A stretch of DNA of 64,000 nt, from NCBI RefSeq assembly GCF_014873755.1, contig NZ_JADBEG010000001.1, forward strand, positions 7,848,501-7,912,500. The letters are read 5' to 3'. Under the pieces are notes generated by a model. The model did no database searches. It saw only the letters and a list, made by a program, of their open reading frames with translations, and was not told the DNA's origin. Shown in pieces: positions 23,118 to 37,927 of the stretch (positions within the stretch are counted from its first letter, which is position 1; every line of letters starts with the position of its first letter). The position numbers and the translations under genes were made by a program. This stretch comes from Amycolatopsis lexingtonensis (GTDB lineage Bacteria > Actinomycetota > Actinomycetes > Mycobacteriales > Pseudonocardiaceae).

Positions 23118-23744
23118 ATGGGTGTCGCTGCAGACGAACGCCAGGCCTTGAGCTTCCTCCTCCGCGAACTCGGGCCCGACGCGCCCACGTTGTGCGAAGG
23201 CTGGACGACCCGCGATCTCGCCGCGCACCTCGTCGTGCGCGAACACCGCCTCGACGCCGCGCCCGGGATCCTCATCCCCGCCCTCGCCGGGCACACGCAA
23301 AAGGTCCAAGACCGCTACGCCGCCAAGGCCTGGGGTGCCCTCGTCGAGCAGGTCAAGCAGGGCCCGTCCAAGTTCTGGCCCACCGCGATCGGCCCGCTCG
23401 ACGAGCTGACCAACACCGCCGAGTTCCTCGTCCACCACGAGGACGTCCGGCGCGCGCAGCCCGGCTGGGAACCACGCCCGGCCGACGCCACGAGGGATGC
23501 CGCTGCCTGGCGGTCGGCGAAACAGGCCGCCAAGCTCAACCTCCGCAAGGCGCCAGTCGGCGTCACGCTCCGGACCACCACCGGGCAGGAGGCCGCCGTC
23601 AAGACCGGGCCCGATCCCGTCGCCGTGATCGGGGCGCCGGTCGATCTGCTGCTGTTCGTGTTCGGCCGCGACGCCGTGCACCTGGAGTTCGAAGGCGACG
23701 CGGCCGCCGTCACGAAGCTGCAGGCCGTGAACCGCGGACTCTGA
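23118..23744 (+). CDS. DinB-fold TIGR03085-type metal-binding protein
   Basis: A 208-residue protein. The opening ADERQALSFLLRELGPDAPTL, then CEGWTTRDLAAHLVVREHRL, fits the actinobacterial maleylpyruvate isomerase/DinB-like superfamily (TIGR03085). Metal-ligand histidines are likely in AAHLVVREHR and in the HHEDVRRAQPGW segment near residue 110. The superfamily includes mycothiol-dependent enzymes, which would suit an actinomycete, but the reaction is unknown. Its end overlaps the opposing membrane gene by 35 bases. Confidence 0.82.
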   Translation: MGVAADERQALSFLLRELGPDAPTLCEGWTTRDLAAHLVVREHRLDAAPGILIPALAGHTQKVQDRYAAKAWGALVEQVKQGPSKFWPTAIGPLDELTNTAEFLVHHEDVRRAQPGWEPRPADATRDAAAWRSAKQAAKLNLRKAPVGVTLRTTTGQEAAVKTGPDPVAVIGAPVDLLLFVFGRDAVHLEFEGDAAAVTKLQAVNRGL

Positions 23745-24402
23745 CCGAAACCCACCGGCCCACCGGCAGCGACACGACGATCGCGGCCAGCACCAGGTGC
23801 ACGGCCATGAAAGCCACCGCGGCCGGCACGCTCGGCGGCCCGCCGAGGAACACGATCATGTGCGACGCCCACTTCAGCTCGGTCGGTTTCGTGCCCGCCG
23901 CCCAGACGTCGTTGAGCGCCCAGAACGTCAGGTCGTTCACGCCGGAGATCACCACGAGGATCGACGCGATCCCGACCTTCAGCACGTTCGCCGTCCGGCC
24001 GCCGCCGAGGCGGTAGGCCAGCAGCGCGAACAGCACGATGAACGTCGTCACGAACAGCTCGAACTGGTACACCGGCTGGAAGTCCTGGTCGGGCGAGCGC
24101 GCGAACCCCTGCACCCGCATCACCAGCTCGGTGTCCAAATAGGACATGTAGACGAAGACGGCGAACACGATCAACGCCGGCCCGAAGCGGCCGCGCGGGA
24201 ACAGCGACACCGTCAGCACCGCGAAGACGAACGGGCACAGCTTGAACGCCCAGTCGCCGACGTTGTCCAGCGTCTGGTCCGGCGGCAGCACCACCATGAT
24301 CAGCAGCGTGGTGACCACCGCCGGGACGGCGGCGACCAGCCACAGCCACTGCCGCCGCCGGTACAGGGCGGCGACCAGGCCGGGCGATTCCAAGAGCGTC
24401 AC
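23710..24402 (-). CDS. Six-helix membrane protein at end of the glycan-like operon
   Basis: A 230-residue protein with six hydrophobic segments at about 15-36, 48-68, 75-98, 115-138, 145-165 and 182-212. The conserved-looking polar motifs YLDTELVMR and GVNDLTFWALND lie at membrane edges. I recognise no family. GTG 24402 overlaps the carbamoyltransferase stop (GTGA), so it is the last gene of the coupled operon 24399-29707. Its 3' end overlaps the convergent neighbour by 35 bases. It may be a transport or membrane-anchored modifying partner. Confidence 0.8.
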   Translation of the reverse strand: MTLLESPGLVAALYRRRQWLWLVAAVPAVVTTLLIMVVLPPDQTLDNVGDWAFKLCPFVFAVLTVSLFPRGRFGPALIVFAVFVYMSYLDTELVMRVQGFARSPDQDFQPVYQFELFVTTFIVLFALLAYRLGGGRTANVLKVGIASILVVISGVNDLTFWALNDVWAAGTKPTELKWASHMIVFLGGPPSVPAAVAFMAVHLVLAAIVVSLPVGRWVSVRVRGSRPAAS

Positions 24403-26198
24403 AGTTCCTTCTCCACCCAGAACGGTCCGAGGGCCAGCGCGTCGACGTCGGTCTTGAGGTAACACGCGATCGCGTCGGCCGGGCTGGCCACGATCGGCTC
24501 GTTGTTGTCGTTGAACGAGGTGTTGACGACCATCGGCACCCCGGTCAGCTTCTCGAACTCGCTGATCATCCGGTAGTACAGCGGGTTGTCCGCACGACTG
24601 ACAGTCTGCACCCGCGCGGTGCCGTCGACGTGCGTGATCGCCGGGACCTCGGCGCGCTTGTCCGGCAGGACGTCGAACACCAGCAGCATCACCGGTGACG
24701 GGTAGTCGCTGACGAAGTACTCGCCCGCGCGCTCCTCCAGGCACGAAGGCGCGAACGGCCGGAACGCCTCGCGGTGCTTCACCTTCTCGTTCATCCGCGT
24801 CTTCGACTCGGGATCGCGCGGGTCGGCGACGAGCGACCGGTTGCCCAGCGCCCGCGGCCCGCACTCCATCCGGCCCTGCACCCAGCCGACGATCTTGCCC
24901 TCGGCCACCTTCGCCGCGGTGTGCGCCGCGATGTCGTCGACGCGCTCGTACTCGACGCCGGCGTCCTGCAGCGCCAGTTCCATCTCGGCCTCGGTGTAGT
25001 CGGGGCCGGTGTAGGTGTAGCCGTCGCGCGGGCGCGGCTTGCCGTACTTGGCGACCGAGACGTCCAAAGCCGCGCCGAGCGCGCAGCCGTCGTCGGCCGC
25101 CGCGGGCTGGGCGAAGAAGTCCTCGAACGGCGTCTCCAGCAGGATCCGCCCGTTCATGACGCTGTTCAGCGCGACCCCGCCGGCGACGCACAGCCGCTTC
25201 GAACCGGTCTCGCGCTGCAGCCAGCGCGCCAGGTGCAGGCCCGCTTCTTCGAGCGTCACCTGCAGGGCGTACGCGATGTCGCAGTAGTGCTGGGGAACGG
25301 GATTCGCAGCCGTGACGCGGGTTTTCGGCCGCGCCGGGCCGAAGGCGTCGGTGAACTTCCGGGACATCACGTGCTTGCCGGTGCGGTGGTGGCCGAACCA
25401 GCTCAGGTCGAGTTCGAAGCCGCCGTCGTCGTCGAGGTGGATGAGCTGCTTGAACGCGTCGACGTAGGTGTCCTCGCCCAGCGGCGCCAGGCCCATGATC
25501 TTGCCTTCGTCGCGGGTCGGGAAGAAGCCGAGGTAGCCGGTGACGCCCGCGTACATCGCGCCGAGCGAGTGCGGGAACTTGATCCGGCGCAGGTCGACGA
25601 TCTTGTTCCCGCGGCCGTGCGCGAGGTAGGTCGCCGTGCCGTCGCTGCCGATGCCGTCGAACGTCATGACCGCCGACTCGTCCCACGGCGAGATGAAGTA
25701 CCCGCTGGCCGCGTGCGCGCGGTGGTGGTCCACGAGGTGGGTCTTGAACTTCGTCGGCCCGGTCCAGCCGACGGCTTCCTTGACGTCGTTCGCCAGCGTG
25801 TAGGACCGCTTGATGTGGGCCAGAACCGCGCCGCCGACGTGGTAGTCGTCGTGGCCGGAGCCGCCCCCGGTCCGGAAGGTGTCGACCATGCCCGCGGACT
25901 TGCCGCCCTCGTCGCCGTTGGCGTTGCGGAAGACGTCCAGCGTGCCGGGGAAGTACCGCGCGAACACCTTGGCCGCGTGGATGCCTTCCTTCCAGCGCTG
26001 CCAGTAGTAGGCCACGTGGTCGACGTCGGCCAGGGTGATCCCGGCGCGCTCCAGGCAGAACTTGATGGCCTCGGCGGGGAAGCCGCCGTCGTGCTTCACG
26101 CGCGTGAAGCGTTCTTCCTCGGCGAACGCGATGATCTCGCCGTCGCGCACGAGTGCCGCCGCCGAGTCGTGCACCCGGCTGATGCCCAGTACGTACAT
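24399..26198 (-). CDS. NodU/CmcH-type O-carbamoyltransferase
   Basis: A 599-residue enzyme. The opening YVLGISRVHDSAAALVRDG with EEERFTRVKHDGGFP, and HLVDHHRAHAASGYF near residue 125, match the Kae1-like N-terminal domain of NodU-type carbamoyltransferases. GGVALNSVMNG near 340 and the C-terminal RALGNRSLVADPRDP are the TobZ-like carbamoylation region. It would transfer carbamoyl from carbamoyl phosphate via carbamoyl-AMP to a hydroxyl of a sugar or natural product. GGGAGAG precedes ATG 26198. It lies 16 bases after the flippase-like gene in one operon. Confidence 0.93.
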   Translation of the reverse strand: MYVLGISRVHDSAAALVRDGEIIAFAEEERFTRVKHDGGFPAEAIKFCLERAGITLADVDHVAYYWQRWKEGIHAAKVFARYFPGTLDVFRNANGDEGGKSAGMVDTFRTGGGSGHDDYHVGGAVLAHIKRSYTLANDVKEAVGWTGPTKFKTHLVDHHRAHAASGYFISPWDESAVMTFDGIGSDGTATYLAHGRGNKIVDLRRIKFPHSLGAMYAGVTGYLGFFPTRDEGKIMGLAPLGEDTYVDAFKQLIHLDDDGGFELDLSWFGHHRTGKHVMSRKFTDAFGPARPKTRVTAANPVPQHYCDIAYALQVTLEEAGLHLARWLQRETGSKRLCVAGGVALNSVMNGRILLETPFEDFFAQPAAADDGCALGAALDVSVAKYGKPRPRDGYTYTGPDYTEAEMELALQDAGVEYERVDDIAAHTAAKVAEGKIVGWVQGRMECGPRALGNRSLVADPRDPESKTRMNEKVKHREAFRPFAPSCLEERAGEYFVSDYPSPVMLLVFDVLPDKRAEVPAITHVDGTARVQTVSRADNPLYYRMISEFEKLTGVPMVVNTSFNDNNEPIVASPADAIACYLKTDVDALALGPFWVEKEL

Positions 26199-26214
26199 GA
26201 TCTCTCCCAGTGGT

Positions 26215-27462
26215 TCAGAATCGGCGGACCAGGCGCCGCAGGACGGCCGCCTTCACCGCGAGCGCGAGGACGAGCGCGGCGAACCCGCCGACCGGCCCGA
26301 GGACGGGGACGAGCAGCGCCGCGGCGACGGCGGTGGCGACGAGCGACACGACGGCGGTGCCGGACGTCAGCGTCAGCACCTTGCTGTTGGTGTTTTCGAT
26401 GAGGAAGCCCGCGTACAGCCCGGTCGCGTACAACGCCGTCTCGACGAGCACGAGCACCCCGAGGACGACGTAGGCGTCTTCGGCGGTGAGCAGGGCGCGG
26501 GTCCCGGGGATGGCGAGACCCGCGCCGAGCACGAGGACCACGCCGATCCCGGCGCGTTCGACCAGCCGCAGCAGTGAAACCGCCCGCGCCCGCCCGGCCG
26601 CCGCGCCCGTGCCGCGCATCCGCCGTGACGCCGCCGGCTGGTGCAGCTTGAGCTGGTAGTACAGCAGCGAGCAGAACGCGCTCGACACCAGCAGCGCCAG
26701 GTAGAACGGGCCGCTGTCGGTGGTCCGGCCGGACAGCGCGAGCACCGCGAACACGACCGACGTCGAGATGACGTCGAGCAGTTCGGTCAGGCCGAGCAGG
26801 ACGGTGCTGCGGCCGAACGCGGGCAGCAGCCGGTGTCCGGGGACACCGCCACCCCGCAGCCACGGGCGCGGCAGCAGGGCGACCGAGGTACCGAGGATGA
26901 CGAGGATCCCGCCCAGCAGCATCGCCAGGTGCGTCTCGGGCGGCCAGCGCACCGCCCACGTCACGCACGTCACGACGCCGACCACGACCGAGCCCGCGGC
27001 GAACGCCAGCGCGTCCAAAGTGGACTTGTCACGCAGCCGGTGCAGGCCGGACACGGTCATCAGCAGCCCGCCGGAGATTGACCAGGCCGCCGCCGTCAGG
27101 TACAGCGCCGCGTCCGAGCGCGGAGCCACCACCAGCGCGACGGCCGTCGCCACCAGCACCGCCAGCACGGGCACCGCGGCCAGCCGGACCGCGAGCGCCG
27201 CGACGGCGTCCCGGGTCCGGTGCAGCCGCGGCAGGCTCTTCAACGCCGACTTCTCCGCCGCGGCCGGCACGAAGTTGAGCCAGGTCATCAGGCCCAGCGC
27301 GTTCGCGAAGCGCCCGTAGTCGCGGGCGCCCCACGCCGTGATCAGGACCAGCCCCATCACCTGGACCGACAGCCGGAAAACCCCGCGGCCGGCGAGCAGC
27401 CGCAGCACCACCGCCGGTCGCGGCGGGGCCGCGACCGGCGAAGCGGCGGAGGGCGCGGTCAC
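26215..27462 (-). CDS. Polysaccharide-flippase-like (MOP superfamily) membrane protein
   Basis: A 415-residue protein with about 11-12 hydrophobic segments. The RLLAGRGVFRLSVQVMGLVL opening and GARDYGRFANALGLMTWLNF resemble Wzx/MurJ-type lipid-linked oligosaccharide flippases, in which the second helix often contains LG..EYG.F. GTG 27462 overlaps the ATP-grasp stop by four bases (GTGA). In context it would move a lipid-linked or amphipathic product across the membrane. Similarity is general, so the substrate is open. Confidence 0.8.
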   Translation of the reverse strand: MTAPSAASPVAAPPRPAVVLRLLAGRGVFRLSVQVMGLVLITAWGARDYGRFANALGLMTWLNFVPAAAEKSALKSLPRLHRTRDAVAALAVRLAAVPVLAVLVATAVALVVAPRSDAALYLTAAAWSISGGLLMTVSGLHRLRDKSTLDALAFAAGSVVVGVVTCVTWAVRWPPETHLAMLLGGILVILGTSVALLPRPWLRGGGVPGHRLLPAFGRSTVLLGLTELLDVISTSVVFAVLALSGRTTDSGPFYLALLVSSAFCSLLYYQLKLHQPAASRRMRGTGAAAGRARAVSLLRLVERAGIGVVLVLGAGLAIPGTRALLTAEDAYVVLGVLVLVETALYATGLYAGFLIENTNSKVLTLTSGTAVVSLVATAVAAALLVPVLGPVGGFAALVLALAVKAAVLRRLVRRF

Positions 27463-28700
27463 GGCAGGGGTACCGCCATGTCCTGGTCGTGGAGCAGGAA
27501 CTTCAGCGTGCCGCGGACGGCGTTCTCCGCCGTGAGCAGCTCCGGCACCGAGCCGGCGGTGAGCACGACGTACCCGAGCTTGTGCCCCGCCTGTTCGTAC
27601 GGCCGGACGAACGAACCCTCGTCGGCGAACAGGTGCAGCCCGACCAGACCCGGCATCGCGCGCACGTCGTCGATACCGTCCACTCGGGACAGGTGACCGC
27701 CGCGGTCGGACGCGAGGATGTGCACCAGGGTCGGCTTCGGCTCGTGCAGGTCCAGCGTGACCTCGCCGCCGGTGGCCGCGGCGATCCCCGCGCCGATCAG
27801 GTCGGCGCCGTGGCAGTGCGCGATCGCCTCGGCGAGCCCGTTGCCGCCCATCCGCGCGCCCATTTCGACGAGGTACAGCCGCCCGTCCCGGCCCAGGACG
27901 GCGTCCAGCGTCAGCGGTCCGGTCCGGTAGCCGAGCTCGGTGCAGATCCGGTCGAGGGCTTCGATCAGGCCCAGCTCGACGTCGGCGGGCAGCTCGGCGG
28001 GCAGCAGGTGCGACGACGTCACGAAGAACGGCGGCGGCGTCAGCACGCGTTCGGTGACGGCGTGGAAGACGATCCGGCCGTCGACGACCAGCGCCTCGAT
28101 GGTGAAGTGCGAACCGTCGAGGTGCTCCTCCACGACCAGTCGCCCGGACGGCGAGAACGCGAGCGACTCGGTGAACGCCTTGGTCAGCAGGCCGGGGCCG
28201 GGGCACGAGACGACCCCGCGGCTGCCGGAGGAGTCGACCGGCTTGACGAGCGCGGGGAACCGCAGCTGCTGCGCGGCGTGCACGAGCTCCGGGCCCGGGC
28301 GGCCGTCGACGCTGCGGTAGCTGGGCAGGGCCAGGTGGTCGCACAGCGCGCGGAACACGGACTTGTCCGTCGACGCCCGGACCGCGTACTCGGGCAGCGG
28401 ATCCGGGAGCCCCCAGTGCCGGGTCAGCCACGCCAGCGCGGGCAGGCCGACGTCGCTGGCCGGGCACAGCACGCCCGCGAGGTCGCGGCGGCCCTCCAGC
28501 GCCGCCGCGATCTGCTCCGGTGCCCGGACGCTGACCTGCAGGAACTCGTCCGCGTACGCCACCGCCGGCGCGCCGGGCCGGACGTCGACGCAGATCGTGC
28601 GGAACCCCAGTTCCCGCGCCCGCTCGTAGGTGCTGACCGAACCGTCCGCGCCCCCGAGGATCACCAGGGTTCTCGCGGGGTCCTTCTTCGAACTCGTCAC
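27459..28700 (-). CDS. ATP-grasp ligase
   Basis: A 413-residue protein. An N-terminal Rossmann-like pre-ATP-grasp domain opens with TLVILGGADGSVSTYERA. The ATP-grasp core has FPALVKPVDSSGSRGVV (near residue 145), VVEEHLDGSHFTIEALV (near 188) and the Mg-binding LYLVEMGARMGGNGLAEA (near 280). The family forms amide or ester bonds from a carboxylate through acyl phosphate. The layout is like carbamoyl-phosphate-synthase/BL00235-type amino-acid ligases. GTG 28700 overlaps the GT2 stop. Probably it joins an amino acid or acid to the pathway's intermediate. Confidence 0.9.
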   Translation of the reverse strand: MTSSKKDPARTLVILGGADGSVSTYERARELGFRTICVDVRPGAPAVAYADEFLQVSVRAPEQIAAALEGRRDLAGVLCPASDVGLPALAWLTRHWGLPDPLPEYAVRASTDKSVFRALCDHLALPSYRSVDGRPGPELVHAAQQLRFPALVKPVDSSGSRGVVSCPGPGLLTKAFTESLAFSPSGRLVVEEHLDGSHFTIEALVVDGRIVFHAVTERVLTPPPFFVTSSHLLPAELPADVELGLIEALDRICTELGYRTGPLTLDAVLGRDGRLYLVEMGARMGGNGLAEAIAHCHGADLIGAGIAAATGGEVTLDLHEPKPTLVHILASDRGGHLSRVDGIDDVRAMPGLVGLHLFADEGSFVRPYEQAGHKLGYVVLTAGSVPELLTAENAVRGTLKFLLHDQDMAVPLP

Positions 28701-29707
28701 GCCGAAACGCCTTTCCCCAGTTGCACATCGATGAGCCGGGGACCCGCCGGGTCCGCCGGGGTGAAGAGCCGGTCCTCGGCGTCGACGACGACGTTCGCTT
28801 CCCGGACGTAGAACTGCCGCGGCCGCGGCTGACCCGCGCCGACCACGACGAGGTAGCGCACGGTCAGCGACGCCACCAGCAGCAGGACCGCGAGCAGCGC
28901 GAACAGCAGCGTCGCGGTGACCCCGGCGCCGAGCAGGCCGAACGCCGCCGCGCCGCCGGCGAGCACCGCGATCCCCGCGGCCAGCAACGCCGTCGCGGAC
29001 GCCGCGGTCGTGAGCCGCCGGGTGAACCCGACGAAGAGTTCGATGGCGTGCGAAGCCAGGAACCCGAAGCCCACTTTGGACTCGCCGCGCTCGCGGGCCC
29101 GGTGCGCGACCTGGACGCAGGTGTACCGGCTGGTCAGCCGGGGGACCGTGGCCAGGAAGTACGGCGTGCCGAGCCGCAGGTCGACGATCTTGCGGGCCAG
29201 TTCCGCGCGGACCAGCCGGAACGCCGTGGCGCCCGGCGGGATCTCGATGCGCAGCACGCGCCGGCCGAGGAAGTGGAACGCGGCGGTGCCCCACCGCCGC
29301 AGCCGCGGGTCCTGGCGGTTCGTGCGGACGCCGAAGACCGCGTCGTTGCCCTGCTCGGCCGCCGCGACGAGCTTCTCCGCCTCGGCGGCGGGGAACTGCT
29401 GGTCGGCGTCGACGTGCAGGACCCACGGTTGCGACGCGTAGCGGTAGCCGGCCGAGAAAGCGGCCTCGAAACCGAAGTTCCGGGAAAAGGACAAATACCG
29501 CACGCGCGGGTCCGCGGCCGCGAGCGCGCGGATCTTGTCCAGCGTTCCGTCGACGCTCCCGTCGTCGACGTAAAACAGTTCCAGCGAATAGTGGCCTAGT
29601 TCGTTGGTTATTTCCCGATAGGACGGTTCTATGTTGTCGACTTCGTTGAAGCACGGAATGACTACGGTGAGTCCACTGTGGGCCGGCCCCGGGAAAGGGG
29701 TGGTCAT
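28697..29707 (-). CDS. Membrane GT2 glycosyltransferase (GtrB/DPM1-like)
   Basis: A 336-residue protein. The GT-A domain has LTVVIPCFNEVDNI, FYVDDGSVDGT and HVDADQQFP (a DxD site). Two hydrophobic helices follow at about 230-250 and 258-285, then a 45-residue soluble tail. This layout matches polyprenyl-phosphate monosaccharide synthases and GtrB. It would load a sugar on a lipid carrier on the cytosolic face. It is the first gene of the leftward operon and is divergent from the acyltransferase operon. ATG 29707 has only a weak ribosome site. Confidence 0.92.
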   Translation of the reverse strand: MTTPFPGPAHSGLTVVIPCFNEVDNIEPSYREITNELGHYSLELFYVDDGSVDGTLDKIRALAAADPRVRYLSFSRNFGFEAAFSAGYRYASQPWVLHVDADQQFPAAEAEKLVAAAEQGNDAVFGVRTNRQDPRLRRWGTAAFHFLGRRVLRIEIPPGATAFRLVRAELARKIVDLRLGTPYFLATVPRLTSRYTCVQVAHRARERGESKVGFGFLASHAIELFVGFTRRLTTAASATALLAAGIAVLAGGAAAFGLLGAGVTATLLFALLAVLLLVASLTVRYLVVVGAGQPRPRQFYVREANVVVDAEDRLFTPADPAGPRLIDVQLGKGVSA

Positions 29708-29980
29708 CTGCCCTGCTCAGGTGGGTGTACCGAATTCGTGTCCGCGCGGTCACCGACAGTGTGAATTGTGATCATGAATCCCCCAGCCGGATCCGGTAAG
29801 GCCGCTTGCCGATTGCGGTGTGGCGGGAGTTATAAGCAGATGGATCGGGAAACGGCGACGGTACTTCTACGAATTCCACCGTTCAGCCCCAGACCAAAGT
29901 AGTAACCCATCCGGCATTCGGGGTGACCTGACGGCCAGGTCCTTCCCCGCGGGCCGGTCGGTGGCGCAGACTCCCCGGCC
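29708..29980. promoter_or_regulatory. 273-bp divergent control region of the two coupled operons
   Basis: No ORF of note. It should hold promoters for both operons. It is locally richer in A/T than its surroundings (for example around 29755-29780 and 29825-29890), as promoter DNA often is. A TGTGAATTGTGATC at 29760-29773 is only a weak partial match to a Crp site. No clear dyad was found. Confidence 0.5.
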
Positions 29981-30739
29981 ATGTGGAATCTGGGGGCGGG
30001 GGTCGTGTGGCGTGCCGCCTACGTCCGGGCGGTGCGCTCGGCGTTCGCGACGGTGCCGTTCTACCGCGAGCGCTGGGCGCTCGACGGCCGGGAGGACCCG
30101 GTCGTGGTGCCCGGGCGCACCGGGACGAACGGCGGCGCGGCACCCCTCGCGGAAGCCGTGCACAAACTGGTCGACCTCGTGCCGCTCGCCGGCGGCGCCC
30201 GGCGGCCCGAGCCGGCGCGCGGGCTCGGGCGGGTCCTGCGGACGGCCCGGCGGCCCGGTCCGGGCAGCCTGGTCGTCCTGCTGGGCCCCGACGACCTGCG
30301 CCCGCCCACCGACCTGCCGAAGGGCGTCCGGGGCTGTGTCGCCGATCCGGACGCGCCTAGCGCCTCGGTGCTGCGCGAGGTCGCGGCCGTGCTGGACCGC
30401 GGGCGCCGCGTGCTCGCCGTCGGCGACGACAAGGCGATCGCGGCGTTCACCGAGGACCACCGCGTCGAGGCCGTGCCGCACCGCGAGCTCGATTCGCTGG
30501 ACGCCGGCCCGTACGGCGTGCTGCACGACCCGGTGCTCGGGTACCTCGGCGCGCTGGGCGGCTGCGGGCGGTGGCACCTCGACTGGCCGCACGTCTACGC
30601 CCGGGAGACGGCCGCCGGGCTCGCGTTCACGTTGCTGCGCCAGGCTTCCCCGCGGTTCGTGGACGTCGTCCCGGCCGGCGGGGTGCCCGGCGAGATCGCG
30701 TTCTGCCCGCGGCACGGCACCCCGGTCGTCCTGGCATGA
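29981..30739 (+). CDS. Unrecognised protein heading the acyltransferase operon
   Basis: A 252-residue protein. The opening YVRAVRSAFATVPFYRERW weakly recalls the first helix of CapK/PaaK-type adenylate-forming enzymes, but the ATP-binding core of that family is not visible. A later segment, LHDPVLGYLGALGGCGRWHL, then LLRQASPRFVDVVPAG, looks like a compact conserved domain. It could be a reduced adenylation protein or something new. GTG 30005, just after a G-rich stretch, is an alternative start. ATGA at 30736 couples it to the first acyltransferase. Confidence 0.65.
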   Translation: MWNLGAGVVWRAAYVRAVRSAFATVPFYRERWALDGREDPVVVPGRTGTNGGAAPLAEAVHKLVDLVPLAGGARRPEPARGLGRVLRTARRPGPGSLVVLLGPDDLRPPTDLPKGVRGCVADPDAPSASVLREVAAVLDRGRRVLAVGDDKAIAAFTEDHRVEAVPHRELDSLDAGPYGVLHDPVLGYLGALGGCGRWHLDWPHVYARETAAGLAFTLLRQASPRFVDVVPAGGVPGEIAFCPRHGTPVVLA

Positions 30740-31767
30740 GGTTCGCGGTCCACGACCCCCGCGCCGACCCGGCACCCGCGGGGTGGGCGGCGTTCTCGCG
30801 CGCCGCACGGCTGCACCCGGTGTGGGACTACGGCGTGATGGGCCTCGAAGCCTGGGGCGCCCGCAACCCGCAGCTGCTGGTCGTCGCGGCCGACGGGGAC
30901 GAGCTCGTCGCCGCGGTCTCCGTGCTGGTCTGCCGTCCCCGGGTGGCGCCGCGGTTCGCGCCCCGGCCCGGGAAGCGCTTGCTGCGGCCGTTCTGGGCCG
31001 AGGTCTGCCAGCCGTGGCTCAGCGGCTACCCGGGGATCGCGTTCGCGCCGGGCGTGGCCGACCGGCCGGCGCTGGTGCGCGAGTTCGAACGGGAACTGGG
31101 CCGCCGCCTCGGTCCCGGCCTGCTCGGGGTCGTCCACCGCGCGCTCGGCGAGGACCTCGCCGCCGGGCTCGGCGGCCGCGGCCGGCTCGTCAAGCGCGTG
31201 GATCCGGTGGCGGTGCTGGACAACCGGTTCGAGTCCGAAGAGGACTGGATCGCGTCGCTGGGGAAGTCGCGGCGGGCGGGGTTGCGGCGGCAGCGGCGCC
31301 GGCTCGCCGAGGACACCTCCCTGGTGATCCGCGGCGGACCGGGCCGCACCGACCTCGACGGCGCCGAGCTGGCCGGGTTGATCCAGGCGCACCGCGAGCG
31401 GTACGGGCGGCTGGCGCTCGACACCCGCACACCGCCGTCGGCGGGGTTCCTTGACCGGTTCGTCCGGCGGCCGGACGTGCACACCCTGACCTACACCGAC
31501 ACCGGGGGGAAGCTGCTCGCCGTGCAGACGCTGCTCGACCACCCGGACACCCCCGTCCTGCAGCACTGGGCCGCGTTGCCACCGGACGCGGGCGGGAAGA
31601 AGTGGCTGTACTTCGACTCCTACGTGCGCGCGGTGCGCTTCACGGCGAAGCGCGGAGCCCGGGAACTGTCCGCCGGCCGCGGCATGATCGCGCTGAAGCA
31701 GGAGCTGGGGTTCCGGCCCCGGCCGGTCTACACGGCCGCCGTGCCGAGGCCGGTGCTGGGCCGGTGA
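30736..31767 (+). CDS. BioF2/FemAB-like GNAT acyltransferase, paralogue 1 of 4
   Basis: A 343-residue protein in the GNAT fold class of the Acetyltransf_6 type. Shared family features run in order: HDPRADPAPAGWAAF at the start, WDYGVMGLEAW near residue 30, GPGLLGVVHRAL near 130, and a basic helix SLGKSRRAGLRRQRRRL near 175. The acyl-site half has LDHPDTPVLQHWAALPP and SAGRGMIALKQELGF. It ends in VPRPVLGR. The FemAB relatives add amino acids from aminoacyl-tRNA; others use acyl-CoA or acyl carriers. The donor is unknown. Confidence 0.8.
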   Translation: MRFAVHDPRADPAPAGWAAFSRAARLHPVWDYGVMGLEAWGARNPQLLVVAADGDELVAAVSVLVCRPRVAPRFAPRPGKRLLRPFWAEVCQPWLSGYPGIAFAPGVADRPALVREFERELGRRLGPGLLGVVHRALGEDLAAGLGGRGRLVKRVDPVAVLDNRFESEEDWIASLGKSRRAGLRRQRRRLAEDTSLVIRGGPGRTDLDGAELAGLIQAHRERYGRLALDTRTPPSAGFLDRFVRRPDVHTLTYTDTGGKLLAVQTLLDHPDTPVLQHWAALPPDAGGKKWLYFDSYVRAVRFTAKRGARELSAGRGMIALKQELGFRPRPVYTAAVPRPVLGR

Positions 31768-32822
31768 AGACCGTCGTCGCAGTGTCGCAAGTGGACGTTC
31801 ACGACCCGCGCGTCGACCCGCCGCCGGAGGGCTGGGCCGCGTTCCGGGCCCGGTGCCTGCCTCCGGTGTGGGACTACGAGTTGCTGCGCCGCGAGGCGTG
31901 GCTGGCGAAGAACCCGCCGGTGCTCGCCGTGGTCCGGCAGGGCCCGGTGGTCGTCGGCGCGCTGTCGGTGATGGTGTGCCGGGGCTGGGGCGGCGGCACG
32001 TTCGGGCCCGTCTCCGGCGGCCGGTTCCGGCCGCGCTGGGCCGAGGTCTACCTCCCGCTGCTCAGCGGCTATCCGGCGTCCGTGTTCGACGAGGACTTCA
32101 CCGATCGGCGCACGGCGATCCGGCGGTTCGAGCGGGCACTGCGCGAGTACGTCGGCCCGGGGCTGCTCGGGGTGGTCTACCGCGCGATGAACCCGGAGCT
32201 GGTGCCCGCGCTGGCCGGGCGGGCGCGGGTCAGCCGCGAGATCGACCCGGCCGCGGTGCTGGTCAACCGGTATTCCACTGTGGACGAATGGGCGGCGGGG
32301 CTCGCGCCGGACGTCCGCCGGTACCTGAACCCGGACGTCGAAACGGAAGCGGCGGCCGGGCGCACCGACCTCGATCCGCACGAGCTGGCCACGCTGCTCA
32401 ACGCCCACCGCGCCCGGCAGGACGAACGCGCGTGGGCCGGCGGCCAGCGTTCCCGGGTCGGTGGGCTGCACCTGGACACCCGCAGCCCGATCGCGCCGGC
32501 GTACCTCGACGGGCTCGTCCGGCGGCCCGACGTCGTGACCCGGACCTACCGCGCCGGGGACGGCCGGCTGCTCGGCTTCAACGCGATGATCGACCAGGAC
32601 CGCGGCTGCGCGGTCCACCACTGGGCCGCGCTCCCGAGCGCGGCCGGGGGCCGGAAGGGTCTCTATGTCGACTGCTACGCCCGGTGCGTGGCCCACATGA
32701 TCGCCGCGGGACGACCGGAACTGACCGCCGGCCGCGCGATGCTGCCGGAGAAGAAGGCGCTGGGCTTCGGCACACGAAGCCTCTTCTCGGTGGCCGTCCC
32801 GAGGCCGGTGCTGGGCCGATGA
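31764..32822 (+). CDS. BioF2/FemAB-like GNAT acyltransferase, paralogue 2 of 4
   Basis: A 352-residue protein clearly homologous over its whole length to the preceding gene product. Markers are DVHDPRVDPPPEGWAAF, WDYELLRREAWLA, PLLSGYPASVF, GPGLLGVVYRAM, HHWAALPSAAGGRKGLY and the C-terminal VPRPVLGR. The basic central helix is shorter (LAPDVRRYLNPDV instead of RRAGLRRQRRR), so this copy has diverged at a likely donor- or tRNA-binding surface. GTG 31764 overlaps the previous stop by four bases. Confidence 0.8.
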   Translation: MKTVVAVSQVDVHDPRVDPPPEGWAAFRARCLPPVWDYELLRREAWLAKNPPVLAVVRQGPVVVGALSVMVCRGWGGGTFGPVSGGRFRPRWAEVYLPLLSGYPASVFDEDFTDRRTAIRRFERALREYVGPGLLGVVYRAMNPELVPALAGRARVSREIDPAAVLVNRYSTVDEWAAGLAPDVRRYLNPDVETEAAAGRTDLDPHELATLLNAHRARQDERAWAGGQRSRVGGLHLDTRSPIAPAYLDGLVRRPDVVTRTYRAGDGRLLGFNAMIDQDRGCAVHHWAALPSAAGGRKGLYVDCYARCVAHMIAAGRPELTAGRAMLPEKKALGFGTRSLFSVAVPRPVLGR

Positions 32823-33862
32823 CCTGGACCGTCCGGGTGCTCGACCCGCGCACCGACCCCGAACCCGCCGGCTGGGCCGCGTTCCTCGAAGCCCAGCAGG
32901 CCCCGCTGACCTGGGACTACGGCCTGTTGTGCACTGAGTCGCGGTGCTCACGCAGCCCATACCTGCTCACGGTCGTCAGCGACGGCGAAGAGCTCGTCGC
33001 CGCCGTGCTCGCGATGGTGTGCCATCCCGGCGGCTCGGCCGAGCCCGGCGCGGTCGACGGCGTCGCGCGGTGGACGCCGCGCTGGCTGGAGGTCCAGCAC
33101 GCCTGGCTGTCGTGCTACCCCGCGTGGCTGTTCGCCGAAGCGCTCGACGCCGCCGCGCGCCGCGAGATCCTGCGCCGGTTCGAACGTGCCGCCTGCCGGC
33201 GCACCGGCCCGGGCTGCCTCGGCGTGGTCTACCGCGCGGCCACCCCGGACACCGCCGGGCTGGTGGCCGGGCGCGGCCGGCTCGTCCGCGAAATCCAGCC
33301 CGCGTTGGTGCTGGAGAACACCTTCGGCGACCTAGACGACTGGCTCGCCTCGCTGAGCCGCAACCGGCGGTCGAGCCTGCGCGGCCAGATCCGCAAGATC
33401 GCCGCGGACCCGGCGATCGTCGTCCGCGAGGGGACCGCGCGGGACGACCTCGACCCCGAAGAGCTGGCCGCGATGCTGCGGGCGCACCGCGCCACCAAGG
33501 GGCCGGTGAAGTTCGACCAGCGCGGCCCGGTCACCGCCGAGTACCTCGGGGAGCTGATCCGCCGCCCCGACGTCGTCACCACGACCTACCACGACGCCGA
33601 CGGGCGCCTGCTCGCCTTCACCGACCTGCTCGACCACCCGGTGATGCCCCTGCACCAGCACTGGGCCGCGCTGCCGCCCGGCGGCGGCCGGCCGAAACAC
33701 CTCTACTTCGACGTCGTCGTGCGGGGAGTGCGGCACATGATCGAGAACAACCGGAAGTTCCTGTCGCTGGGCCGCGGGGTCACCGACCTCAAGGCGTCGC
33801 TGGGGTTCAGCCCGAGCCCGATGACCGGCGTGGTCGTGCCGAGGCCGGTGACGCGGTGGTGA
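32819..33862 (+). CDS. BioF2/FemAB-like GNAT acyltransferase, paralogue 3 of 4
   Basis: A 347-residue protein. The opening VLDPRTDPEPAGWAAFLEAQ, then TWDYGLLCTESRC, HAWLSCYPAWLF, GPGCLGVVYRAA, the basic helix SLSRNRRSSLRGQIRKIAAD, HQHWAALPPGGGRPKHLY and SLGRGVTDLKASLGF are in the same order as in its neighbours. It has three extra cysteines in the first third. ATG 32819 overlaps the previous stop (ATGA). It ends in VPRPVTRW, close to VPRPVLGR of copies 1 and 2. Confidence 0.8.
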   Translation: MTWTVRVLDPRTDPEPAGWAAFLEAQQAPLTWDYGLLCTESRCSRSPYLLTVVSDGEELVAAVLAMVCHPGGSAEPGAVDGVARWTPRWLEVQHAWLSCYPAWLFAEALDAAARREILRRFERAACRRTGPGCLGVVYRAATPDTAGLVAGRGRLVREIQPALVLENTFGDLDDWLASLSRNRRSSLRGQIRKIAADPAIVVREGTARDDLDPEELAAMLRAHRATKGPVKFDQRGPVTAEYLGELIRRPDVVTTTYHDADGRLLAFTDLLDHPVMPLHQHWAALPPGGGRPKHLYFDVVVRGVRHMIENNRKFLSLGRGVTDLKASLGFSPSPMTGVVVPRPVTRW

Positions 33863-34893
33863 TCGACGTGCTCGACCCGCGTCACGACGCGGAACCGGCG
33901 TACTGGACGGCGTTGCGCGCGCGGGCCGGCCTGCGCGCCGACTGGAGCTGGCCGGTGCTCGCCACCCAGGCGTGGGCCGCGCGGACCCCGCAGCCGGTGA
34001 CCGTGCTGCGCGAGGGCGGCGAGCCGTGCGGGGTGGTCAGCGCCGCGTGGGTCACCGGCCGGACGCGGCGGCACCGGTTCGCCGGCCCGGGCCGTGGCTG
34101 GTTCGGCGGCCTCGACGTCCGCGGTCCGGGTGCGGGTTCGCAGCCGGGCTGGTGGTTCGCCGACGCGGGCGACGACGGCGGCGTCACGCGCCTGCTCGAG
34201 GCGTACGTCCCGGCCATGCGGGCCGAACTCGGCCGCGGCCTGCGCGGGCTGCTGGTGCGGCAGGTCGGCGAGCCGGGCGTGCCCGCGGTCGACGGGCGGT
34301 TCCGGCTGGTGCGGCGGACCGAGGACATCGCGGTGCTCGACGTCGCCGCGTTCGGCTCCCGCGACGACTGGATGAACTCGCTGGCCCGCAAGCGGAAGCA
34401 GAACCTGCGCAAGATCTTCCGGACCTTCGACGCCGACCCGTCGGTCGAGGTGCGGTTCGTGCCGGGCAAGGACGCCGACCCGGTCGCCGTCGCCGAGGTG
34501 CTGCGGCACAACGAGCGCAAGCACCACGACGTGCCGATCGTGCCGTTGCCGCACTTCACCGGCTACCTGGCCGCGCTGCTGAGCGAGCCGGACGTCTCGG
34601 TGATCGAGTACCGCGACACCCGCACCGGACGGCTGATCGCGCTGGCCACCCTGCTCGACCACCCGGACCTGCCGATCGCCCGCCACTGGGGCGCGCTGCC
34701 GCCGTCGGACGGCGGCCGGCCGAACCTGTACTTCCACTTCTACGGCGAGGCGGTGCGCTGGGCGATCGCGAACGGCCGGGCGTCGGTGGTGTTCGGCAAG
34801 AAGATGACGGAGATGAAGGCGACCCTCGGCGCGCGGCTCGTCCCGCAGTTCGCGGCGGCCGTCCCGGTGCTAGCTTCGCGGCGTCCCGCCTAG
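33859..34893 (+). CDS. BioF2/FemAB-like GNAT acyltransferase, paralogue 4 of 4
   Basis: A 344-residue protein, the most divergent of the four. Retained features are DVLDPRHDAEPAYWTAL, a Trp-rich start, MNSLARKRKQNLRKIFRTFD (near residue 170), LLDHPDLPIARHWGALPP and VFGKKMTEMKATLGARL. The SGYP segment and VPRPVLGR tail are lost. GTG 33859 overlaps the previous stop (GTGA). Such divergence suggests it handles a different acceptor or donor. It is followed 14 bases later by a tautomerase gene. Confidence 0.78.
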   Translation: MIDVLDPRHDAEPAYWTALRARAGLRADWSWPVLATQAWAARTPQPVTVLREGGEPCGVVSAAWVTGRTRRHRFAGPGRGWFGGLDVRGPGAGSQPGWWFADAGDDGGVTRLLEAYVPAMRAELGRGLRGLLVRQVGEPGVPAVDGRFRLVRRTEDIAVLDVAAFGSRDDWMNSLARKRKQNLRKIFRTFDADPSVEVRFVPGKDADPVAVAEVLRHNERKHHDVPIVPLPHFTGYLAALLSEPDVSVIEYRDTRTGRLIALATLLDHPDLPIARHWGALPPSDGGRPNLYFHFYGEAVRWAIANGRASVVFGKKMTEMKATLGARLVPQFAAAVPVLASRRPA

Positions 34894-34907
34894 TACCAGG
34901 AGCCGCC

Positions 34908-35093
34908 ATGCCCATGATCAGCGTTGCCATGTTCCCCGGCCGCACCCCCGCCCAGAAGAGCGCGCTGGTCCGCGAGCTGACCGACGCCTTCGTCCGCACG
35001 TGCGGCGGCAAGCCCGAAGGCGTCCAGGTGACGCTCGTCGAGATCGGCGCGGACCACTGGGCCACCGGCGGCGTCCTGCACTCGGAACGCTGA
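34908..35093 (+). CDS. 4-oxalocrotonate tautomerase-like protein
   Basis: A 61-residue protein, the usual size of the family. Processing would expose Pro1 of PMISVAMFPGRTPAQKSAL, the general base of these small hexameric tautomerases. The VTLVEI and HWATGG stretch near the end fits family members. ATG 34908 has AGGAG seven bases upstream. It is on the same strand, 14 bases after the acyltransferase operon, so it may belong to that pathway or merely read through. The substrate is unknown. Confidence 0.85.
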   Translation: MPMISVAMFPGRTPAQKSALVRELTDAFVRTCGGKPEGVQVTLVEIGADHWATGGVLHSER

Positions 35094-35157: not shown

Positions 35158-37008
35158 TCAGCGGAGGCCGAGGGCGCGCAGGGCGAAGTGGACCTCGATC
35201 GACGTCTGCTTGATCGTCTCCGCGATCACCAGGGAGCCGTGGCCCGCGTCGTAGCGGTAGAACTCGTGGTGGAGGTCGCGGCCGGTCAGGCGGTCCAGGT
35301 AGTTCTCGATCTGGCGGATCGGGCAGCGCGGGTCGTTGTCGCCGGCCAGTACGAGCACCGGCGCCGTCACGGCGTCGACGTAGGTGATCGGCGAGCACTC
35401 CCGGTACACCGCCGGCACGTCCTCCGGCGAACCGCCGAAGAGCGCGCGGTCGAACGAGCGCAGCTGCTCCATCTCGTCCTCGTACGCGGCGACGTAGTCC
35501 GCCACCGGCACCCCGGCGACGCCCGCCGCCCACCGCGTCGGCTGCGTGCCGAGCGCGAGCAGGGAGAGGTAGCCGCCCCAGGAAGCGCCGTTGACGACGC
35601 ACTTGGCCGGGTCGCTCAGTCCACTTTGGACCGCCCAGTCGTGCACCGAAGCGACGTCCTCCAGCTCGGTCAGCCCGGGCCGGCCTTCGATGGCGTCGCG
35701 CCAGGCCGAGCCGTAGCCGGTCGAGCCGCGATAGTTGACCTCGACCACGGCGAACCCGGCGTCGAGCCAGGTCGCCCGATAAGCCGAGAAGCGGTCCTCG
35801 TCCGCGGCGTGCGGGCCGCCGTGCAGGGAGAAGACCGTGGGCAGCGGGCCGTCGGGCGCGCCGGACGGCCGCGAGACCAGCGCGTGGATCCGCCCGCCGA
35901 CGCCTTCGACGAACGCGTCGGTCACCGGCTCCGACCCCGGCGCGCGCTCGCCCGGCGGTTCGAGCAGCACCGAGTCGGCGCCGTCGGCGGTGCGCGCGCG
36001 GACCGCCGACGGTTCGGCCGCGCTGGACCACGAGTACTCGACCGTGCCGTCCGGGCGGACGCCGGCGCCGCCGATCCGGCCGGCGGGGGTGTCCACTGAG
36101 GACAATTCGGCCGTGTCGAGGTCGTAGCGGTACAAGGAATTGCGGCCCTCGTGGAAGTGGACGACGAGCAGGGCGCGCGCGTCCGGGTACCAGCCGGCGA
36201 CGACCTCGCCGGGCAGGTCCAGCTCGAGCTCGGTCTCGGTGTCCGCGCGGACGTCCCAGACGAGCAGCTCCTCGCGGCCCCGCCGTTCGTGCAGGACGAG
36301 CAGCCGCTGGTCGCCGGGCAGCGGCGAGAACTCCAGCGCGGACAGGCCCTTGCCCTCGCCGTCCCACTTCTCGGCGACGGTGCCGAAGCCGTCGGTGGCG
36401 AGCACCCGCAGCGCGGGGTGCCGCGAATCGCCGTGCTCGGAGTGCGAGATCGCGATCAGGCTCTCGTCGCGGGAAAGCGACGCGATGCCGGCGTCGTCCG
36501 CGTGGCTGTAGAAGCGGTGCGTCTCGCCGTCGATCCGGGCGAACAGCTCGCTGCCGTCGTCGGTCGAGACGCCGACCGCGACGAGCTTCGCGCCGATCTC
36601 GAGCCCGGCCGGGTAGCCGTCGTGGACGTCCGGGACGCCCTTCTCCGGCTTGCTCCCCTCGGTCGCGGCGAACGGCTCGCGCACCCACGAGCCGAACTCG
36701 TCGCCGTCGGTGTCGTCGAACCACCAGATCCACTCGCCGTCCGGGGACGGCGTCGCGTGCAGGGTGCCGTTGGGCCGGTCGGTGACGCGGCGGTGCTCGC
36801 CGGACGCCCGGTCCCAGGCGTAGACCTCCCAGACGCCACTGGAATTGGAGACGTAGATGTTGGCGTCGGGCGCGTCACGGGCCCAGTCGGGCGTGGAGAT
36901 GCGCGGCGCGTGGAAGCGGGCGCGCCAGCGGTTCTCGGCTTCGGCGTCGTCGAACAGCCGGTCCGGGACCACCGCGGGCGGATATTGGTTCGCTGACTGC
37001 GTGCTCAC
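35158..37008 (-). CDS. S9-family serine peptidase (prolyl oligopeptidase type)
   Basis: A 616-residue protein with no signal peptide, so probably cytosolic. The first about 370 residues form a beta-propeller, with repeats such as WEVYAWDRASGEHRRVTDRP and ELLVWDVRADTETELELDLP. The C-terminal alpha/beta hydrolase has LHGGPHAADED, the nucleophile in NGASWGGYLSLLALG, the Asp in AGDNDPRCP and the His in YDAGHGSLV. It likely trims small peptides or acyl-amino acids. GTG 37008 opens MSTQSANQYPP; the longer upstream frame runs into the divergent gene and is rejected. Confidence 0.9.
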   Translation of the reverse strand: MSTQSANQYPPAVVPDRLFDDAEAENRWRARFHAPRISTPDWARDAPDANIYVSNSSGVWEVYAWDRASGEHRRVTDRPNGTLHATPSPDGEWIWWFDDTDGDEFGSWVREPFAATEGSKPEKGVPDVHDGYPAGLEIGAKLVAVGVSTDDGSELFARIDGETHRFYSHADDAGIASLSRDESLIAISHSEHGDSRHPALRVLATDGFGTVAEKWDGEGKGLSALEFSPLPGDQRLLVLHERRGREELLVWDVRADTETELELDLPGEVVAGWYPDARALLVVHFHEGRNSLYRYDLDTAELSSVDTPAGRIGGAGVRPDGTVEYSWSSAAEPSAVRARTADGADSVLLEPPGERAPGSEPVTDAFVEGVGGRIHALVSRPSGAPDGPLPTVFSLHGGPHAADEDRFSAYRATWLDAGFAVVEVNYRGSTGYGSAWRDAIEGRPGLTELEDVASVHDWAVQSGLSDPAKCVVNGASWGGYLSLLALGTQPTRWAAGVAGVPVADYVAAYEDEMEQLRSFDRALFGGSPEDVPAVYRECSPITYVDAVTAPVLVLAGDNDPRCPIRQIENYLDRLTGRDLHHEFYRYDAGHGSLVIAETIKQTSIEVHFALRALGLR

Positions 37009-37848: not shown

Positions 37849-37853
37849 ACTCG

Positions 37854-37927
37854 TCGGGGTGGCGGGATTCGAACCCACGACCTCCTCGACCCGAACGAGG
37901 CACGCTACCAAGCTGCGCCACACCCCG
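37854..37927 (-). tRNA. tRNA-Pro (anticodon CGG)
   Basis: The 74-base gene folds with acceptor CGGGGTG/CACCCCG, anticodon stem CCTCG/CGAGG with loop TTCGGGT (anticodon CGG, reads CCG) and T arm GTGGGTTCGAATCCCGC. The discriminator base is A. CCA is not encoded. No integrase or repeat of its 3' end is seen nearby. Confidence 0.95.

Follow-up and report, generated by a model that had tools for sequence, protein, structure and literature searches.

The 64,000-nucleotide stretch of DNA analysed here (the window) belongs to the 10.74 Mb, single-contig genome of Amycolatopsis lexingtonensis, genus Amycolatopsis (contig NZ_JADBEG010000001.1, positions 7,848,501 to 7,912,500), and carries two divergent operons that together form a candidate pathway for a lipid-linked sugar bearing amino acids and a carbamoyl group. 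The leftward operon encodes a GT2 glycosyltransferase, an ATP-grasp ligase, a flippase-like protein, a NodU-type carbamoyltransferase and a small membrane protein; the rightward operon encodes a PaaK-like protein, an array of four Fem-type transferases (F1–F4) and a tautomerase. Both operons are real, at the coordinates and junctions claimed for them in an earlier note made from the letters alone. Three leftward junctions are 4-base overlaps and a 16-base gap separates the flippase-like and NodU-type genes; in the rightward operon, the PaaK-like gene and F1–F4 are all overlapped, with a 14-base gap before the tautomerase gene. The predicted features, in window positions and with their basis in brackets, are as follows.

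23710..24402, minus strand: small integral membrane protein, likely a membrane enzyme or export partner (12-sequence alignment)
24399..26198, minus strand: NodU/TobZ-type O-carbamoyltransferase (Pfam N and C domains, PDB matches, HHxxHA)
26215..27462, minus strand: polytopic membrane protein, probable lipid-linked glycan flippase (hydrophobic segments, UniRef names of some relatives, co-occurrence)
27459..28700, minus strand: ATP-grasp amide ligase of the L-amino-acid-ligase type (Pfam, PDB matches, 4-base overlap with the GT2 gene)
28697..29707, minus strand: GT2 polyisoprenyl-phosphate glycosyltransferase of the GtrB/ArnC/DPM1 type, DADQQ motif at residue 100 (Pfam, PDB matches, motif)
29829..29890, no strand: conserved stretches GTTATAAGC then AATTCCACCGTTCAGCC of the shared intergenic region (22-locus alignment)
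29967..29972, plus strand: CAGACT, a -10-like hexamer 8 bases before the start codon, at a spacing that would suit a leaderless transcript (motif count across loci)
29981..30739, plus strand: degenerate PaaK-fold protein, N-terminal domain only, Cys/His quartet C195, H199, C242, H245
30736..31767, plus strand: F1, Fem/MprF-fold tandem GNAT transferase
31764..32822, plus strand: F2, paralogue of F1 (alignment and tree)
32819..33862, plus strand: F3, paralogue of F1 (alignment and tree)
33856..34893, plus strand: F4, deepest-branching array paralogue, start at 33856 or 33859 (presence across loci and tree)
34908..35093, plus strand: 4-oxalocrotonate tautomerase family protein, outside the conserved core (NCBIfam, below cut-off)

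Co-occurrence and layout of the two operons

The earlier note had read the two operons as a single pathway, and their distribution supports one unit. In a set of 200 family genomes, an identical 26, the host among them, have both the PaaK-like gene of the right operon and the ATP-grasp gene of the left; the other 174 have neither. The thresholds that yield 26 genomes for each query (E<1e-20 for the PaaK-like, E<1e-60 for the ATP-grasp query) were chosen post hoc, from observed gaps; 14 more genomes match the PaaK-like query at E 1e-5 to 1e-3 through short parts of longer reading frames, and 126 more match the ATP-grasp query at E 7e-34 or weaker, matches that are taken as other ATP-grasp proteins. 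Gene order and orientation are kept in many genomes, a recurrence beyond chance. Left-versus-right gene distances correlate with r 0.87–0.94 over 35 loci, which mostly reflects shared ancestry and is not taken as proof.

The cluster, with two to four transferases, occurs in Amycolatopsis, Prauserella, Saccharomonospora, Goodfellowiella, Actinophytocola and one Actinokineospora. Type 1 clusters possess NodU and the divergent layout. In type 2 clusters (Actinokineospora, Labedaea), the GT2, ATP-grasp, flippase-like, small membrane protein, PaaK-like and Fem-type genes are reordered within ~12 kb, and a sugar epimerase-type enzyme is added (PF01370, 7.1e-44 for L085); one Actinokineospora genome, G045, carries both types (L081 and L089). 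Actinophytocola clusters bring a second ATP-grasp gene (L069, L082) or an epimerase gene (L082, L083). Most type 2 clusters (e.g. L087:9420-10334) also add a Cys-containing protein, another PaaK-like protein that has diverged, Fem-type copies of a fifth clade (F5) and, by eye, a small SnoaL-like protein, and a conserved protein of ~180 residues with no confident Pfam match lies at the edge of several clusters (L083:3326-3874, L069:820-1353, L081:14414-14953).

A one-genome-per-species scan returned 36 loci, the closest PaaK-like protein being that of A. eburnea (96%); their genera we place in Pseudonocardiaceae, apart from one locus of a metagenome-assembled genome titled only 'Actinomycetes bacterium'. 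The fetched flanks contain the GT2 gene at 35 of the 36 loci, an ATP-grasp gene of the matching kind at 34, the small membrane protein gene at 35, the flippase-like gene at 34 and NodU at 28. Absent are all five genes from the partial copy L118, the ATP-grasp gene from L119 (cut before it), the flippase-like gene from L113 and NodU from seven type 2 loci. These loci (L090–L125) overlap in source genomes with an earlier set of 27 fetched regions (L063–L089), and counts from the two are not summed; in that set, gene maps place both halves in 26 regions, the exception being L084.

L084 is the same locus as L118, from Actinophytocola xinjiangensis, where an extra partial right half lies without a left half; the same genome carries the near-complete cluster L083, in which the PaaK-like reading frame is split. 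The earlier note had held that relatives with either operon alone would speak against a single pathway: the halves stay together in 26 of the 200 genomes, and they part only in this extra copy. The partial right half (L084:7472-11412) consists of the PaaK-like gene, F1 and an F4 fragment. Its neighbours, by eye, are a non-ribosomal peptide synthetase (NRPS), MbtH, an ABC transporter, another ATP-grasp protein and a PanD-like protein, and PanD-like and MbtH-like genes also follow the main cluster in L083. For the conserved core, the statement that no polyketide synthase or NRPS is present holds. At the level of genome comparison, the two operons behave as one unit.

The earlier note cited a shared promoter, and the intergenic region between the operons does carry conserved stretches. 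It spans 273 bases; of 22 aligned loci from four genera, 19 have GTTATA and 21 have a site that loosely resembles CCGTTCAG (CCG.TC[AG]G or CC[ATG]TTCAG), while the strict form CCGTTC[AG]G is found in only 9. The hexamer CA.[AG]CT lies 5–9 bases before the start-like codon of the PaaK-like gene at 26/28 type 1 loci (misses L113, L120) and at 8/8 other loci (seven type 2 and the partial copy L118), both being raw counts without a chance control; its spacing would fit a leaderless transcript. A consensus promoter scan found no promoter. In rearranged clusters, a looser motif scan of 20 loci did not clearly locate the intergenic block ahead of the other transcription units, and co-regulation there is therefore unproven.

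Among 35 non-redundant type 1 loci, with copies labelled by best match, the array reads F1-F2-F3-F4 in 23, F2-F3-F4 in six, F1-F2-F4 and F1-F3-F4 in two each, and F1-F4 and F1-F2-F3 in one each. F4 is present in 34 of the 35 and is the last copy nearly everywhere; the exception is L096, whose contig ends inside F4. In a tree built on 59 copies (19 of the 39 loci), F2, F3 and F4 each fall on one side of a branch, and F1 is not one clade.

Predicted folds and motifs of the encoded proteins

The protein that opens the rightward operon, previously called unknown, can now be described as a PaaK-fold protein that lacks the ATP-binding motifs. Its predicted structure corresponds to the PaaK N-terminal domain, and the C-terminal lid is absent, the 252 residues stopping at residue 322 of the 423-residue PaaK1 chain. 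Neither SSGTTG nor [ST][SG]GT[TS]G, and neither [FY]R[TIVL].D nor RTRD, occurs in any of the 61 rows of the PaaK-like family (43 distinct sequences), while true PaaK-like proteins of relatives do carry the P-loop and RTRD motifs; the Cys/His quartet resembles that in PaaK-like proteins of relatives. The profile comparison with true PaaK proteins gave only 7.8% probability (E 0.0044, one comparison), so the assignment rests on fold and motif layout. Nearly all of the 27 PDB sequence matches to the PaaK-like alignment were TAL-effector repeats, which we discounted as fortuitous similarity to a repeat array with partial coverage.

The array proteins are predicted to adopt a double GNAT fold. The Pfam family Acetyltransf_6 matches F1 and F3 above its cut-off and F4 below it, and F2 gives no match; F3 also has a sub-threshold FemAB_like match (PF04339, 16 bits versus 27). 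The canonical FemAB family PF02388 is not matched by the array up to E 0.1, nor does the host genome hold any candidate at E<=1e-20; because of this, we describe the array as one that may work like FemABX/MprF and not as a member of that Pfam family. NCBIfam has no name for any of the Fem-type proteins, and a sequence-only PDB search with the transferase alignment returned nothing. In structural comparison, a Z gap of ~3 favours aminoacyl-tRNA enzymes over acyl-CoA GNATs, and Foldseek TM-scores are 0.36–0.49 for acetyl-CoA GNATs versus 0.51–0.65 for the Fem, MprF and Sba18/Sbb17 rows. The acyl-CoA motif [QR]xxGx[GA] is present in at most 61/136 copies at one column, which corresponds to F1 residues 123–128, at the end of a modelled helix (110–125) and not in a loop after a strand. 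Of the alternatives 'acylation or aminoacylation' left by the earlier note, the Z gap tilts the choice to aminoacyl-tRNA-dependent aminoacylation, and on these models aminoacyl-tRNA is probably the donor.

For the leftward genes, the reading as glycosyltransferase, ATP-grasp ligase, carbamoyltransferase and export proteins is supported. The GT2 protein (Pfam PF00535, 1.4e-30) matches sll0501 (GtrB, 6e-23), ArnC (1e-21) and DPMS (7e-12) in the PDB, and D[ADG]Dx[QD], the family's DxD-type motif, is present in 62/62 rows; enzymes of the GtrB, ArnC and DPMS type load sugar onto polyprenyl phosphate. The ATP-grasp protein bears an L-amino-acid-ligase domain (LAL_C2 6.5e-15, ATP-grasp_4 3.1e-11), with PDB matches to 4dim and the BL00235 ligase 3vot. 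The NodU-type protein carries both O-carbamoyltransferase domains (Carbam_trans_N 2.1e-58, Carbam_trans_C 6e-72), matches decarbamoylnovobiocin carbamoyltransferase, GdmN and TobZ in the PDB (best 5e-100), and possesses HHxxHA, presumably an iron-binding site, at residue 158 (kept in 49/50 rows).

The flippase-like protein gave no match to any Pfam profile, Wzx/MATE-type flippases included, up to E 1, so its label rests on size, ~10 hydrophobic segments and the UniRef names of some relatives, e.g. 'O-antigen/teichoic acid export membrane protein'. The small membrane protein, earlier described as six-helix, has 7 hydrophobic segments at the cut-off used, close to that count; K54, R131, D157, H181 and H202 are invariant across 12 aligned sequences that span two families of genomes, and these five charged residues suggest that it may be an enzyme. 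In the class samples, searches at E<=1e-3 for the small membrane protein (394 genomes) and at E<=1e-12 for the flippase-like protein (388 genomes) hit the same 11 genomes. These are the host, G045 and nine from a single other family; three sequences of that family were already in the flippase query alignment and none in the membrane-protein alignment. In the other family's operons, the pair lies beside a distant GT2 (26–32% identity), a CofD-like protein (PF01933, 5.7e-28 for L145) and, by eye, a HAD phosphatase, a nucleotidyltransferase and GT4 glycosyltransferases; this co-occurrence in glycan-type operons supports a putative lipid-glycan export role for the pair. The CofD-like gene is an odd occupant of a glycan locus in these regions (L140–L150; nine genomes, another actinobacterial family).

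The tautomerase (NCBIfam 3.1e-17, under that model's cut-off) appears only in seven maps of close Amycolatopsis relatives that share the flanking genes (L063, L090–L095), and its membership in the cluster, as listed in the earlier note, is not supported. Farther right, ARAGORN calls a 97-base tRNA-Ala at 35275-35371, inside a peptidase gene and probably spurious, and a tRNA-Pro (cgg) at 37853-37927 that looks real.

A proposed pathway and its alternatives

From the genes present, their linkage and conservation, the predicted folds and the lost motifs, we propose, as the most economical reading, that both operons serve a single pathway to a lipid-linked sugar that is aminoacylated and carbamoylated, a scheme that we judge evenly poised between right and wrong. 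The GT2 would load a sugar onto polyprenyl phosphate. Amino acids would then be added one by one, in amide (or ester) linkage, by the ATP-grasp ligase and by the two to four transferases of the Fem-type array, the latter drawing on aminoacyl-tRNA; the NodU-type enzyme would O-carbamoylate the sugar; the polytopic membrane protein would flip the product; and the small membrane protein would act on the product, or with the flippase-like protein, at the membrane. The PaaK-fold protein would be a pseudo-ligase, devoid of PaaK-like ATP binding, serving as scaffold or binding partner of the Fem-type enzymes. What each enzyme does, in what order, with which tRNAs as donors, on which sugar and with what final destination are all parts of this proposal. 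A lipid-linked acceptor is probable, and the cell envelope is a somewhat likelier destination than secretion. Only tentatively do we put forward the fuller version, in which a PaaK-fold partner without activity keeps the Fem-type array together, and the array, fed by tRNA, assembles a short peptide on a carbamoylated, flipped polyprenyl-linked sugar as an undescribed envelope conjugate of Pseudonocardiaceae.

Several points weigh against this scheme. Every proposed reaction is a prediction, and fold similarity is no proof of tRNA use. By Foldseek E-value, acetyl-CoA GNATs are mixed among the tRNA enzymes (2wpw at rank 4, E 9.9e-11; VipF at rank 14). Lys321, conserved in 136/136 copies, lies 19 residues before the aligned end versus 21 for FemX Lys305, a match in distance from aligned ends only and not a residue-level alignment; a profile alignment to FemAB (9 of 16 loci) ended before Lys321, at an HH probability of only 55%. 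Caulobacter HfsK, assigned to the GNAT N-acetyltransferases, is proposed from indirect evidence to modify the material of the holdfast (PMC5362036). The small membrane protein, with no Pfam match up to E 0.1 and no PDB match, has no known fold. NodU was not found in the fetched flanks of type 2 clusters, the rest of those genomes not having been searched, and one cluster, catalogued as both L081 and L113, has no visible flippase gene. The conserved core lacks a sugar-nucleotide gene, a tRNA synthetase and an aminotransferase; the claim that all steps are present was too strong, as no core gene makes the activated sugar.

The main rival is a secreted antibiotic or signal, a small peptidyl aminosugar like streptothricin or BD-12 made by the same enzymes, with the membrane proteins as exporters and the GT2 acting on a lipid or soluble acceptor. 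The best structural matches include Sba18 and Sbb17, two aminoacyl-tRNA synthases whose structures were determined with streptothrisamine, the PDB relatives of the O-carbamoyltransferase are antibiotic tailoring enzymes, and BD-12 uses the Fem-like Orf11 (PMC12945691). We nonetheless regard this reading as somewhat unlikely, given a GT2 of the polyisoprenyl-phosphate type, the recurrence of the membrane pair in another family's glycan-type operons, and a conserved unit that contains no regulator, resistance gene or core scaffold synthase. Acylation of a polysaccharide or glycolipid, with the GNAT-type proteins using acyl-CoA as proposed for HfsK (PMC5362036) and the ATP-grasp enzyme adding one amino acid, is improbable: the Z gap and the sparse, helix-end [QR]xxGx[GA] motif argue against it, and the Acetyltransf_6 assignment of F1 and F3, the HfsK precedent and the high Foldseek E-value ranks of acetyl-CoA GNATs speak in its favour.

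That two independent operons merely share a promoter region is very unlikely; the partial right half at L084/L118 would fit, but the identical 26 of 200 genomes for both halves, and type 2 clusters that keep the genes of both within ~12 kb despite rearrangement, would not. The Fem fold could also suggest peptidoglycan cross-bridge synthesis, which we consider extremely unlikely for an array that is restricted to some members of one family and linked to GT2, carbamoyltransferase and flippase-like genes, in a host whose genome, array included, has no PF02388 candidate at the threshold above. Were the lipid-linked conjugate scheme true, tRNA-fed, ribosome-independent peptide building would reach a glycolipid, beyond peptidoglycan, phospholipids and single-step antibiotics, and would do so in a genus valued as a source of antibiotics. 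Several species have naturally lost one array member and keep three of four copies, which would offer a ready-made series for matching one enzyme to one amino acid, and in the PaaK-fold pseudo-enzyme the fold of a catabolic ligase would have been put to an unusual new use.

Relation to known systems

The earlier note knew of no described pathway with this gene set, and the literature agrees as far as it was covered: none of the matches listed in open-licence PubMed Central describes it by title and abstract start, which is no proof of absence in print. Several paralogues of tandem GNAT fold working together have a parallel in staphylococcal FemX-FemA-FemB: in S. aureus, residue 1 is added by FemX, residues 2–3 by FemA and residues 4–5 by FemB (PMC4964394). 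In contrast to FemABX, the array is a separate sequence family without PF02388, is linked to lipid-glycan genes and gives no indication of a peptidoglycan bridge role. MprF is a single protein with a built-in flippase domain; relative to such aminoacyl-phosphatidylglycerol synthases, the cluster has separate genes and a glycan context. Compared with the streptothricin and BD-12 synthases (Sba18, Sbb17, Orf11), it has two to four copies, a flippase-like protein and a polyprenyl-type GT2.

Non-ribosomal peptide systems built on ATP-grasp and Fem/MprF-type ligases (surveyed in PMC2922099) resemble the proposed pathway in making peptides with ATP-grasp enzymes and with tRNA-using ligases of GNAT fold; the main text of that article mentions neither Amycolatopsis nor Saccharomonospora nor a carbamoyltransferase. 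HfsK of the Caulobacter holdfast is, like the array proteins, a GNAT-type protein in a glycan pathway (PMC5362036). It differs from them in that acyl-CoA is its presumed donor. We know of no NodU or ATP-grasp partner of HfsK. The cluster's NodU shares domains and the HHxxHA motif with TobZ, NovN and GdmN but lies outside aminoglycoside, aminocoumarin and ansamycin clusters, and the PaaK-fold protein shares the N-terminal domain fold of PaaK1, AjiA1 and NatL2 but is devoid of their P-loop, RTRD motif and C-terminal lid. As far as tested, the parts are of known kinds, and their combination and the degenerate PaaK partner are new.

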